Origin: Rubidibacter lacunae KORDI 51-2
Lineage (GTDB): Bacteria > Cyanobacteriota > Cyanobacteriia > Cyanobacteriales > Rubidibacteraceae
NCBI RefSeq assembly: GCF_000473895.1
Contig: NZ_ASSJ01000031.1
Coordinates: 1 to 64,000, forward strand
Length of the DNA: 64,000 bases
Direction: 5' to 3'
Shown here: positions 1,057 through 50,792 of the stretch, piece after piece
How positions within the stretch are numbered: position 1 is the first letter of the stretch
Layout: each line of letters starts with the position of its first letter
Position numbers and translations under genes: made by a program
Notes under the pieces: model-generated
Told to the model about the DNA's origin: nothing
Database searches by the model: none
The model's input: only the letters and a program-made list of their open reading frames with translations

Positions 1057-2529
1057 TCAGCGTGCGGTAGCGGGTTGGCGATCGCGTGAAAATGGTTGAA
1101 ACCGTGCCAGGATAGCTCGCGCTGCCTGTTGTCCGGACAGCGTCGCGCCTTCCATACTGTCGATATAATCTTGCTGAGTATAACTACCGGCCAGGAAGAA
1201 ATTGGGAACGGGCGTTTGCTGCGACGGGCGATACGGATCCATACCTGGTGCCTCGCGATACAGAGACTGTGCCAACTTCACGACGCTGTACCAGGTCATG
1301 TTCAGCTCCCGTGCCGACGGGAACAGCTCCCTTACTTGCTCCAGGACGTGCTGAGCGATCGCCTCGTTCTTTGCCTTTATGAACGGATCGCCGGGCGTCA
1401 GGACTAGCTGCAGCAGCGACCCTTCACCCTCGCGGTAATAGTCGCCGGGACTGGTTAGGGCGAGGTCTGCGAAACAGGAGAAGTCGGCATCGGGCGTGTA
1501 AAGCAAATTATCGATGCCGGCAGCGGTCACGAGCTGCTGGCGCCGCTTGGCATCGTGTAGCTCCGTGACCCACCCGTCGAAGCGCAGCTGCACCGTTGCC
1601 ACGGGAACGGCATCGAGTTTGTAGATATTGTCGAATTCGGACCAACGCCGCCAGGCTGTTGGCAGCAGGCGCTGGATACCCGGTACATCACACGCCGCCA
1701 CATAAACATCTGCCGCGATCGCTTCTTCGATATCGCCTTGGGCGACGATCAGCTTGGTGACGCGTGGGATACCGTCGATTTCCTCGTATTGCACCTCCCG
1801 GACGCGGCGGCGAATGTGGAGTTTCGCCCCCCGTTCTTCGAGGTAACGCAAAATTGGTTGGGTCAGATAGGTATCCGGCGAGCCTTCAAGCATCCGCAAT
1901 ACCGAGGCCTCGGAGCGTGCTGCAAAGAATTGAAAGATCGTCAGCATGCAGCGGGCGGAAATATGCTCGGTATCGATGAAGCCCAGAGCATAGGCGATCG
2001 GGTTCCACAGGCGCTTGAGGCTGCCGATATTCCCCCCGTGGCTGCGGAACCAGTCGGCAAAACTGACGCGATCGAGGTCGCGAATCGTCCGCATCGCGCC
2101 ATCCAAATCGACCAACCCACGAACGATCGGGCTCGTACCCAGGGCAAGCGAGTTGGCAAGTTTGTCGATCGCCGACAACTGAGACGTCGTAAAGAATGCC
2201 TTCAACCCGTTAAACGGCGCGCCCGTCAGGAAGCGAAAGTCCAACTCGCCGGTGCGACCGCCGCGGTTGATGAAGGTGTGAACGTGCTCCTTCAAGCGCA
2301 GATTGGCGATCGCGCCGACTTTTTCCATCAGCCCGAACAGCCGGTAGTAGCAACCGAAGAAAACGTGCAAGCCCATCTCGACGTGGTTGCCGTCGGCATC
2401 GACCCAGCTGCCCACCTTGCCACCCGCAAACGGTCGAGCTTCGAAGATTTCGACCGCACACCCGGCATCGACAAGCTCTACTGCTGTTGCCAAACCCGCC
2501 AAACCCCCACCGACTATCGCTACGCGCAT
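1057..2529 (-). CDS. zds: Zeta-carotene desaturase (CrtQ-type)
   Basis: Converts zeta-carotene to lycopene through neurosporene, between phytoene desaturase and lycopene cyclase, at the membrane with plastoquinone as likely acceptor. The chosen ATG at 2529 gives 490 residues starting [19 protein letters not shown], a Rossmann GxGxxG FAD-binding motif at the extreme N-terminus as in the family. Upstream codons remain open to 2790 but look like non-coding sequence and lack homology. The C-terminal FAD-contact region ([19 protein letters not shown]) is intact. It is the first gene of the zds-SRPBCC-nfi operon. The plant-type desaturase family, not bacterial CrtI, is indicated by the FFLAGSYT...DSMEGA ending. 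Confidence 0.95.
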
Positions 2530-45754: not shown

Positions 45755-48655
45755 CTAGACAAACAGCACGGGGAGTAGCTGAGGCAAAATGAAGCCCAAT
45801 ATCAAACAGACCCCACCGACGACGAGAGACCAGAAGCGGTGATAGCTGCGGACCATCGTCACCGGCTCATCTTCGCCTTCCAGCAATAACAAGTCGATCT
45901 GGGGAATAATCCCGCGTCGGAACCACCCGGTCGTGCGGACATCCCGACCGATGAGAAATTCAACTTGTGAAAGACCGAAGAGGAAGTTCCCGATCGGTCC
46001 GAATCGCGAAGAGTACCGCGCGAGGATCGTGCCCGTCTTATCCTGCATCTTCAAATCCGATCCAAAGCGATTTCCCGCATCGCCGCGACCGATCAACTCG
46101 GCATCGAGCTTGACGGGTTTCCCGCGCAGCGGACTAGCATAGGGGTCTGACATCAGTGTCATGATATCGGTTGCCGGCGCGCGCTTAAAGTCCGGGTACA
46201 TAAACAAGGTTTTGACCAGTACGCCACTTCCGAAGAAAACCAAGATCAGCGATGGGAAAACAATGGGCGATGCTCCTACCCATAGAGCGCTGGTTCCAGC
46301 GACGAGCCCGAGGAAAAACATCAGCGCATCTAAGCGGAAGAGAATCAAGTCTGTCAGGAAGTTGCTATAGAGCTTGCGCTTGCTAAGCTGCCGACCTTCT
46401 TTAACGACTGCAGCGAAGTTGAACTCCACGTCTAGCCCCAGCTGCTCGGCATAGGTGCTAAGCGCGCGGATGCGTTTGCCCGTAAGGGGGTGCGTGGATT
46501 GCAGTTCCATCCACCAGCCCCAGGGGTTGAAGAGATCCCAGAGGAAAACGCGCCCGACTTTTTCAGGCTCGCTGGTGATGCTATACGCTGTTCCAGACGA
46601 CGATGCGGCCTGCGCGTCATAAATTCCCAAGGCGCGCGTTCCCTCAACGAGTTTGCTACGTTTTTCGCCCTGGCGTACCTGTTCTTTCTCTTCTTCAACT
46701 AAACCGTAGGCAATCTTTACTAATGCGCGCGACAAAGCATTGGGATTGCCAGTCACTTCAGCAGCAAAGTGGTCGGCGTAGTACTCTCGGGTGCGCGACA
46801 GATAAAGCAGCAAGTACGTGCCAATAACGTAAAACACGTAAGCCGCCAATGCCACATTGTGCGTGAGTTCGCGTCCGCGATTGCCGCCGAACTTGATATC
46901 TCTCGTGAAGGTGTAAATCAAATACGTGAGCTGAACGAGCGTAGATGCTAACGTCATGACTGCAAAGTCCCAGTGCACCACGTGCCCCAGCTCGTGGGCA
47001 TAAACCGCAGCGGTTTCATCGTCGTCGAGGTAGGTAAACAACCCCTGACTAACGACTACGCGTGCGGTGCTCGGTAGCGAACCATAGGTGAATGCAGTTG
47101 GGTTCTGGTCGTCAATCAGACCTATGCGCGGCACCGGTAGTTTGCGGTCGCGGCAGATGCGCTCGATCGTTTCAGCTGCCTCGGGGCTGCTGCGTCTGAT
47201 GTGTCCCAGACCCACCCATTTTGTGCCGTATAACAGGCTCTGGATGATGTCCATGAGCGTGGGCGAAATAAAAAAGATGACCAGCTGTAAAACAACTGCG
47301 ATCGATGCCGCCACAGTCAATCCCAATAGGCGGTTCTCGCCTTGCACGCCCACGGCTGCCAACACGAGTACCAACAGCATACCGAACACCAAACCGACCG
47401 TTACCGTTGAGGCTAGGGTGAGGCTGCTGGCAACGCCTTGCATTGCCAACTTGACGCCTAGCTGTGCGGCGCGGTTGGCTTTCGGGAAGCGACTGGGTAG
47501 CTTGCTGGGGCGGCGGCGGTTCGGCGAGGAGCCTTCGCCATCAACAATGGGTCGGGCTTTGGCAATGTGGAGAGCAGCGAGTTGCTGTTTGGCCCAGGTT
47601 GCTCTCATCTCGTCGCCGCTTCTGGCGATGTCTTCGCAAATAGCGATCGCCCGATCGTACTGGCGCGTATTTCGATAGGTCTTTATCAGACCCATGCGCG
47701 CTTCGCGATAGGTTTCAGAGCCGTTGTCATCGCCACAACGCCTGCAATATTCTTCTAGCGCCGCGATCGCATCGTGGTAACGTTTTTCCTGAAGTGCTTG
47801 CAGCCCGACTTGAAAATACTTCTTAAGCTCGGTTTGTATATCTTCTTCGATCTTCGCCAGCATGGTTTCTCCCCAGTCGCGTACTTCGCGCCGAGGGTGC
47901 TCGGTGAGTTTTTGGCACAGATGCAGGGCTTTCTCGTGTTCGCGCTCGCCACGGTAGGCTTGCACGAGTTGCATGCGAGCTTTCTGAAACGTCTCTGACT
48001 GGTAGTCCTTGCTGCTACCTTGCTGGCAGTATTCTTCGAGCGCCGAGACCGCCTCGCTAAAGTTTTTGTGCTTGAATGCTTGCAATCCTCGCTTGAGCAA
48101 TTGCTCTAGCTCGCGTTTATGCTCCTCAGCAGTGAAGCAGTCGAGGACTTCGCGCGCCCAATTACGGACTTCTGGTCGGCGGTTCTCGACCAAGCGCTCG
48201 GCAATAGAACGAGCCTTCTTGCGATCGCCTGCTCCGTCGTAAGCGCGAACGAGCTCCATGCGGGCGTGTACGGCATCGTCGGATTGCAGATTGATACCGG
48301 GCGAGCGATAGAAGTCTTCCAGGGCTTTGATTGCATCGGCGAAACGCCCTTGCTGTAGTGCGGCTTGCCCCTCGGTCAGTTGCTGAGCTGACTCAGCGTA
48401 ACGCGCCTCGGCTTCCAGGGTAGCTAGCGCCGCCCTCGCCCAGTTACTGACATTGGGGTGTGGATAGTTAGCTAACTCACGTCCGAGGACGACAGCCTTC
48501 TGGAGCTGACCATTCCCGTGATAAGCGCGAACGAGTTCCATCCGTGCCTGCAGGAAATCGGGGTCCGACACGTTTGTGCCAACCGCCTCTAATGCTCGCA
48601 CGGCGTCCTGAAATCGCCCCTCCTGGAGTGCTTGCAAACCAGCCTGGAATGACAT
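45755..48655 (-). CDS. M48 family membrane metalloprotease with four tandem N-terminal repeats
   Basis: 966 residues. Residues 1-370 are four tandem repeats starting near 6, 96, 190 and 284 (period 90-94), each with G-QAL-EGRF-DA--ALE, then ARM-LV-AY and a WA/WG helix: TPR-like superhelix. Two membrane helices follow at about 412-436 and 444-465. The HtpX-like catalytic domain has HELGH at 554-558, with Glu624 in TREYYADHFAAE as third zinc ligand. Further hydrophobic segments lie near 605-620, 760-790 and at the C-terminus (GGVCLILGFILPQLLPVLFV). A membrane quality-control role is inferred for M48; the repeats probably choose partners. Confidence 0.9.
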   Translation of the reverse strand: MSFQAGLQALQEGRFQDAVRALEAVGTNVSDPDFLQARMELVRAYHGNGQLQKAVVLGRELANYPHPNVSNWARAALATLEAEARYAESAQQLTEGQAALQQGRFADAIKALEDFYRSPGINLQSDDAVHARMELVRAYDGAGDRKKARSIAERLVENRRPEVRNWAREVLDCFTAEEHKRELEQLLKRGLQAFKHKNFSEAVSALEEYCQQGSSKDYQSETFQKARMQLVQAYRGEREHEKALHLCQKLTEHPRREVRDWGETMLAKIEEDIQTELKKYFQVGLQALQEKRYHDAIAALEEYCRRCGDDNGSETYREARMGLIKTYRNTRQYDRAIAICEDIARSGDEMRATWAKQQLAALHIAKARPIVDGEGSSPNRRRPSKLPSRFPKANRAAQLGVKLAMQGVASSLTLASTVTVGLVFGMLLVLVLAAVGVQGENRLLGLTVAASIAVVLQLVIFFISPTLMDIIQSLLYGTKWVGLGHIRRSSPEAAETIERICRDRKLPVPRIGLIDDQNPTAFTYGSLPSTARVVVSQGLFTYLDDDETAAVYAHELGHVVHWDFAVMTLASTLVQLTYLIYTFTRDIKFGGNRGRELTHNVALAAYVFYVIGTYLLLYLSRTREYYADHFAAEVTGNPNALSRALVKIAYGLVEEEKEQVRQGEKRSKLVEGTRALGIYDAQAASSSGTAYSITSEPEKVGRVFLWDLFNPWGWWMELQSTHPLTGKRIRALSTYAEQLGLDVEFNFAAVVKEGRQLSKRKLYSNFLTDLILFRLDALMFFLGLVAGTSALWVGASPIVFPSLILVFFGSGVLVKTLFMYPDFKRAPATDIMTLMSDPYASPLRGKPVKLDAELIGRGDAGNRFGSDLKMQDKTGTILARYSSRFGPIGNFLFGLSQVEFLIGRDVRTTGWFRRGIIPQIDLLLLEGEDEPVTMVRSYHRFWSLVVGGVCLILGFILPQLLPVLFV

Positions 48656-50327: not shown

Positions 50328-50792
50328 ATGGTTATTTACTTTTATAAAGCTGACGCGCCCTACGGTTGCTTCTCAAATTTCTCTCCTCACCCGATCTGTT
50401 TAGAGGGCTGCGAGTGGCCGACAGTCGAGCATTACTATCAAGCGCACAAGCTCCTCGGTACGCCAGACGAGCCTCTGATGTCTATTATTCGCAAAGCGGT
50501 CACACCTGAAGAAGCTGCCGCAATTGGGCGCAATCGGGCGCGGACGATCCGAGCTGATTGGTCTATAGCTAAGCGGCAGGTCATGTGGGATGGTGTATTG
50601 ACTAAATTCCTTACCCACTCAAATATTCAGGCGATGCTTCTTGCAACTGGTGATGACGTGCTAGTAGAGAATTCACCTCGCGATTCCTATTGGGGCTGCG
50701 GGCGCGATGGGACCGGACACAACGCCCTCGGAGAGTTGCTGATGCGAGTGCGCCAACACATCCGCCATCATCCAGAAGCCATGCTGTCTTAG
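50328..50792 (+). CDS. NADAR family protein (YbiA-like)
   Basis: 154 residues. Family landmarks: FYKADAPYGCFSNFSPHPI at the N-terminus, EWPTVEHYYQAHKLLG, ADWSIAKRQVMWDGVLTKF, and the C-terminal NSPRDSYWGCGRDGTGHNALGELLM. NADAR proteins (YbiA/DUF1768) are linked to NAD/ADP-ribose chemistry, with YbiA-type members reported to hydrolyse riboflavin-pathway intermediates. Which applies here cannot be decided. No NAD- or riboflavin-related neighbours, no toxin gene next to it. Single gene after a gene-poor region. Confidence 0.92.
   Translation: MVIYFYKADAPYGCFSNFSPHPICLEGCEWPTVEHYYQAHKLLGTPDEPLMSIIRKAVTPEEAAAIGRNRARTIRADWSIAKRQVMWDGVLTKFLTHSNIQAMLLATGDDVLVENSPRDSYWGCGRDGTGHNALGELLMRVRQHIRHHPEAMLS

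Follow-up and report, generated by a model that had tools for sequence, protein, structure and literature searches.

Does the fourfold repeat array ahead of a membrane protease set one gene of the cyanobacterium Rubidibacter lacunae apart from its relatives, and what might such an array do for the protease? A first-pass annotation of the window (the whole stretch of DNA analyzed, 64 000 nucleotides from the start of contig NZ_ASSJ01000031.1) had described four tandem repeats, two membrane helices and an HELGH protease domain. The gene is an open reading frame of 966 codons on the minus strand (45755-48655), starting with ATG and free of internal stops. Its features are collected in Table 1.

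Table 1. Features of the TPR-M48-OB gene in window coordinates.
Feature	Residues	Position	Strand	Basis
Whole gene, 966-aa TPR-M48-OB membrane protein		45755..48655	-	ORF
TPR module 1	3-91	48383..48649	-	HMM match and self-comparison
TPR module 2	93-185	48101..48379	-	HMM match and self-comparison
TPR module 3	187-280	47816..48097	-	HMM match and self-comparison
TPR module 4, membrane-proximal	281-371	47543..47815	-	HMM match
Basic linker, predicted disordered	372-416	47408..47542	-	pLDDT below 50, charge count
TM helices 1-2	417-476	47228..47407	-	Hydropathy and model helices
Peptidase M48 domain, with internal TM3-TM4	494-734	46454..47176	-	Pfam PF01435
HELGH zinc/catalytic motif	554-558	46982..46996	-	Conserved H554, E555, H558
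Third zinc ligand E624	624	46784..46786	-	Conservation
H722 of THP motif, candidate equivalent of BepA plug His246	722	46490..46492	-	Conservation
TM helices 5-6	766-819	46199..46360	-	Hydropathy and model
Predicted OB-fold domain	820-938	45842..46198	-	Isolated model and fold matches
C-terminal TM helix 7	939-966	45758..45841	-	Hydropathy and model

The repeats, the helix pair and the protease motif were all borne out. Comparison of residues 1-370 with themselves gave peaks at offsets of 94, 188 and 278 residues (scores 183, 96 and 75; the maximum in 100 shuffles was 48), and all six pairwise repeat alignments scored 96-169 against shuffled maxima of 35-49. HMM bounds divide residues 3-371 into four tandem modules of 89-94 residues each, 28-43% identical to one another. 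Three TPR models of Pfam exceed their cut-offs in this region, namely TPR_19 (63.1 bits versus 25, E 3e-17), TPR_14 (41.5 versus 23.5) and TPR_16 (41.9 versus 32.7), as does the model for YfiO, a BamD-type protein built of TPRs (58.4 versus 25). The consensus module comprises two TPR-like hairpins and then a terminal helix bearing the W-A pattern.

Structure prediction agrees with a helical module. AlphaFold2, given a 47-row alignment, predicted helical hairpins at pLDDT 81-97 across the array block, with about four helices per module, the last predicted to continue into the first helix of the next module as a single helix of 34-35 residues. The top fold match is LapB (Z 14.4, but rmsd 19 Å over 180 residues), with the proviso that Z values for helical repeats fall in a range that the comparison tool calls non-specific. 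Solved TPR structures superpose at 2.0-3.3 Å over 87-97 residues, and longer alignments have rmsd values of 8.5-36 Å; assignment of the repeats to the TPR solenoid class, by local superposition over the shorter length, is well supported. A superhelix spanning the whole array, as suggested in the first-pass annotation, is a possible shape.

Hydropathy places two helices before the protease (peaks at 418-436 and 443-461), two within it (564-582 and 601-619) and three after it. The protease domain matches PF01435 at E 7.4e-30 (104.6 bits against a cut-off of 20.3). The residues H554, E555, H558 and E624 are present, and all four are kept in 153 of 153 orthologues, a set made up of frames longer than 500 residues with the window protein itself excluded (L042, L184 and L157, set apart in the module counts below, are included). 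The M48 site is intact in what is predicted to be a membrane-bound zinc protease. E624 is kept in only 5 of 27 paralogues. H722 is likewise invariant in the 153 orthologues, in a stretch modeled at pLDDT below 50; by analogy it is possibly the equivalent of the plug histidine His246 of BepA (excerpt of PMC7950410).

The earlier domain account was correct as far as the protease and missed what lies beyond it, a C-terminal domain ahead of the last membrane helix that we predict to be an OB fold. Modeled in isolation, residues 818-942 reach a mean pLDDT of 86.8 and a pTM of 0.78, and the predicted order, with three strands before a helix and two to three after it, corresponds to the five-stranded OB barrel with a helix between strands 3 and 4. 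The best 50 matches listed by fold comparison (Z 8.5-10.5 over 79-99 residues) carry mostly OB-fold titles, RPA and class II tRNA synthetase anticodon domains among them; archaeal RPA aligns at Z 10.5 and 2.3 Å, and E. coli YgiW at Z 9.9 and 2.8 Å, each over 86 residues. Foldseek alone returned nothing for this domain at E<=0.001 (best 2.9e-3), a PDB sequence search gave no credible match, and Pfam had no match to the window's domain and one weak match (E 0.23) among the corresponding stretches of two relatives. A profile of the domain found matches in 36 of 117 genomes drawn from the phylum, all of them in class Cyanobacteriia; the misses include at least seven genomes outside that class. The listed matches all lie in frames of 453-968 residues, the shortest being the gene of genome G037, which has an internal stop.

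On which side of the membrane do these domains lie? The linker before TM1 is basic, with 8 K/R versus 2 D/E, and hydropathy detects no hydrophobic segment N-terminal of residue 407; because of these two features, the TPR array, protease and OB domain most likely all face the cytoplasm. Cytoplasmic repeats had been supposed from the start, and the charge balance favors that placement as a deduction from sequence. We take an HtpX-like topology to fit it as well. The linker is modeled at pLDDT below 50 (370-422 in the model, which lacks Met1, so that its numbering is the true residue number minus one). With a pTM of 0.47 overall, and a pLDDT below about 56 towards the end of the protease (model 670-742), the whole-protein model places neither the array relative to the protease nor the plug.

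Two known systems resemble the protein from different sides. With HtpX it shares an M48 domain with HExxH, a TM pair at the N-terminus and another two helices; HtpX models fill the first eight places among its NCBIfam matches, although the best scored 134.2 bits against an equivalog cut-off of 341 and no NCBIfam HtpX model was reached over its cut-off. The protein may still work like HtpX, to which it adds the TPR modules, an extra TM pair, the predicted OB-fold domain and TM7. With BepA (YfgC) it shares the pairing of an M48 protease with a TPR domain and a conserved histidine late in the M48 domain, so TPR-M48 fusions as such are already known. BepA, however, is periplasmic (excerpt of PMC8423444) and has its TPRs at the C-terminus (excerpt of PMC7950410), whereas the window protein has the opposite order, with TPRs first, probably in the cytoplasm, and TM helices next, and is polytopic.

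We think it probable that the protein is a quality-control protease of the membrane, similar to HtpX, and that its TPR array docks substrates or an adaptor in the cytoplasm. An integral-membrane zinc metalloprotease of this kind would work in cyanobacterial membrane protein quality control; its N-terminal modules would form a docking platform that delivers clients, or an adaptor, to an active site embedded in the membrane, and the conserved OB-fold domain on the same side would offer a second binding surface. H722 may gate activity, like the plug of BepA, and with four modules the array would be longer and its binding sites more numerous or different in kind. Docking seems the most likely role because TPR platforms are known to serve other proteases. 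The TPR domain of BepA is reported to be necessary for function and for BamA degradation (excerpt of PMC7950410). LapB (YciM), also built of TPRs and with a domain in the cytoplasm, partners a membrane protease: it regulates FtsH-mediated proteolysis of LpxC (excerpt of PMC7730581); unlike the window protein it is a separate adaptor lacking a protease domain, and the overall superposition is the poor one given above. In Synechocystis, photosystem and pigment assembly involve TPR proteins (excerpt of PMC4853703). The array may select substrates or partners, as the first-pass annotation proposed.

Is the architecture exceptional? The first-pass annotation had supposed that common M48 proteins lack such a module. 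E. coli fits this, in that of its four M48 proteins three have no TPRs (excerpt of PMC7950410); this cyanobacterial family does not. Matches at E<=1e-10, plain HtpX-type matches counted in, occurred in 158 of 194 genomes of the class, and among the matches listed at least 58 of the 194 genomes, counting that of the window, have one of 50% identity or more. We defined orthologues by at least 50% core identity, in a sample rich in Nostocales. The N-terminus could be read in 152 orthologues. Of these, 36 lack the module, 98 carry one copy, 17 carry two and one, the window protein, carries four; 116 thus have at least one, and a single module is the usual state of the fusion. The TPR module is the usual N-terminus of this cyanobacterial M48 family, and only the fourfold number is unusual, seen in a single genome. 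In the one- and two-module relatives, Nostoc, Calothrix, Moorena and Acaryochloris among them and mostly with one, the domain order is the same and core identity is 50-62%. For many one-module orthologues the alignment to the window protein starts near residue 280, at module 4.

These counts have the following bounds. L042 and L184 were excluded from the 152, as their contigs start too close upstream to show a module; L205 was left out because its frame had been read as four residues only; L157, whose one module is interrupted by an in-frame stop upstream of an intact protease core, was kept apart; and 13 duplicate proteins and the fragments or non-family rows L051, L055, L057, L058 and L186 were not counted as orthologues. 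For the 36 zero-module orthologues, a scan of up to 1.5 kb of upstream sequence (0.7 kb for L172 and 1.1 kb for L192) in the three forward frames revealed no module. In eight entries (L032-L035 and L196-L199) the TPR module is replaced by another N-terminal region, about 210-300 residues long. Since module number varies and other N-termini occur, the N-terminus appears to be an exchangeable accessory on a stable protease-OB core; and with 36 of 152 lacking it, some of them with a different N-terminus, the module is dispensable in part of the orthologues. Among the eight other genomes of the window's GTDB family, one has an orthologue (L042) and the rest have weaker matches only or none. Separately, we noted a one-module orthologue with an in-frame stop further on (L016). 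L186 has at least two module-like stretches in a gene interrupted by reading frames that we take to be transposase-like.

The family also has relatives that have lost the active site. We fetched 84 distinct paralogues with less than 50% identity to the window protein. HExxH is gone from 78 of them and the full zinc site from 80; six keep HExxH in place, and four keep it together with the third ligand. They share the TPR module, the M48-like fold and the OB-type domain, at least one TPR module being present in 80 of 84, and D628 and R728 are kept in all 84 and H722 in 80. The window's genome has its own such paralogue (L004/L148, contig C27 of genome G000), with AQLFH instead of HELGH. After thinning of 91 sequences to 80, a rapidly built tree whose root is arbitrary places 61 of the 69 dead sequences on one branch, and the dead/active label changes twice where shuffling gives 10.5 changes. 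Among the matches listed, this weaker group (below 50% identity) occurs in at least 91 genomes, at least 41 of which also have an orthologue; the active site was read in fetched sequences only, so that the frequency of the dead form alone is an estimate. Pseudo-orthocaspases are cyanobacterial pseudoproteases of another class (excerpts of PMC7889975 and PMC6426788). In the text of a review of inactive metallopeptidases (PMC11266112), the strings M48, Ste24, HtpX, cyanobacteri and OMA1 do not occur.

Nor is the module restricted to M48 proteins. A profile of 19 modules had matches in 53 of 59 class genomes, and 47 of the 59 (counted by eye) have frames of 148-250 residues with the module. Three genomes (G011, G021 and G031) have module frames of about 180 residues and no M48-family match. 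Proteins of about this length (L146 and L272-L291) combine one TPR module with a motif like EWLTQIPDL; all 20 that we fetched have one module and 19 have a C-terminal hydrophobic helix (the exception is L275), so that by prediction from sequence they form a tail-anchored family. Eight longer carriers (L147 and L292-L298) include seven with predicted TM helices and one with none (L295). Five of the eight matched domains of other kinds in scans: DUF3137 in L147, which is from the window's genome, and in L294; DUF4870 in L292 (over the cut-off) and L293 (just under it); and DUF3153 in L298. Because it is found on many non-M48 proteins, we regard the module as an accessory in general use among cyanobacteria, mostly in membrane proteins.

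This wide use gives rise to the main rival of the docking proposal, that the modules are a device for assembly or localization, binding the same module where it occurs on the pseudo-M48, the tail-anchored or other membrane proteins, or a common scaffold, and making no choice of substrate. Functionally different proteins do carry the same module, and dead proteases have retained it in the proportion given above although nearly all lack HExxH. The modules on other proteins of the window's own genome are divergent, however, being detected at E 1e-6 to 7e-4 by single-sequence search, and we regard co-assembly of this kind as rather unlikely to be their main role.

A broader and tentative idea, which we hold to be possible though distinctly short of probable, is that one module of about 92 residues serves as a docking tag shared by a set of cyanobacterial membrane proteins. 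Through the same partner, pseudoproteases might control the active protease or supply it with substrates, or else serve by themselves as membrane chaperones, and the four-module protease would be a multivalent hub. If this were true, the set would comprise the active M48-OB protease, the dead M48-OB paralogues, the tail-anchored protein and the DUF3137, DUF4870 and DUF3153 proteins.

The array might instead mostly inhibit or gate the protease, as a cap or spacer, with copy number tuning reach or strength. The TPR domain of BepA does pack tightly on its M48 domain (excerpt of PMC7950410), and the linker of the window protein is predicted to be flexible. Yet the order is reversed relative to BepA, the array is separated from the protease by the disordered 45-residue linker and two TM helices, and 36 of the 152 orthologues have no module to gate with; we consider gating improbable as the main role.

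As for the origin of the four modules, recent expansion or misassembly was ruled out by the module tree and by the repeat identity of 28-43%, which is too low for recent copies or an assembly artifact. In the tree the four repeats do not group together: the pairing of modules 1 and 2 has a weak support of 0.55, and the position of module 4, near the second modules of two-module homologs, is very weakly supported. Neutral drift, giving the three extra modules no function beyond that of one, has in its favor that the fourfold form occurs in 1 of 152 readable orthologues and that the others have zero to two, but it is very improbable: despite their low mutual identity, each of the modules matches the family HMM (built including them) at E 7e-25 to 5e-28, suggesting long constraint, and the frame has no internal stop. 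Docking of substrates or an adaptor remains our preferred reading.

Gene context gives no functional clue, because none of the six neighboring ORFs of the window has a counterpart beside any of 80 relatives (blastp 1e-10; some flanks are short); an operon logic was accordingly discarded. A neighbor common to 40 relatives, which we take to be glutamate-semialdehyde dehydrogenase, does not occur next to the window gene. A mobile or phage origin was also discarded, there being no plasmid match to the C-terminal 231 residues, and the five matching phage-collection records cover only the protease core (30-32% identity over 16-17% of the query). Promoter and terminator scans gave no more than shuffled sequence. 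Elsewhere in the window Rfam places one tRNA; ARAGORN calls a tRNA-Trp at 1621-1711 (-) that is absent from the Rfam gathering search. An ORF of 154 residues at 50328-50792 (+) encodes a putative NADAR/YbiA-type protein.

The architecture is common, and among the matches listed by a full-text search of open-licence PubMed Central we found no description of it and no functional study of the cyanobacterial TPR/HtpX-like/OB M48 lineage. The refuting case named in the first-pass annotation, that of a well-described family architecture, thus applies only in part; expression of cyanobacterial M48 proteins is reported, family membership not being given (excerpts of PMC8973743 and PMC12265555). The fourfold protein is mostly an amplified version of a common, apparently uncharacterized cyanobacterial architecture, and the more surprising and stronger lead is the pseudo-M48 family that shares its module. 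The finding marks out a cyanobacterial M48 lineage that unites TPR modules, an HtpX-like core and an OB-type domain, with module numbers from zero to four that make the docking-array role testable by module swaps. It brings to light, too, a large family of dead proteases sharing this layout, which raises the question of what role a membrane M48 scaffold has once catalysis is gone.
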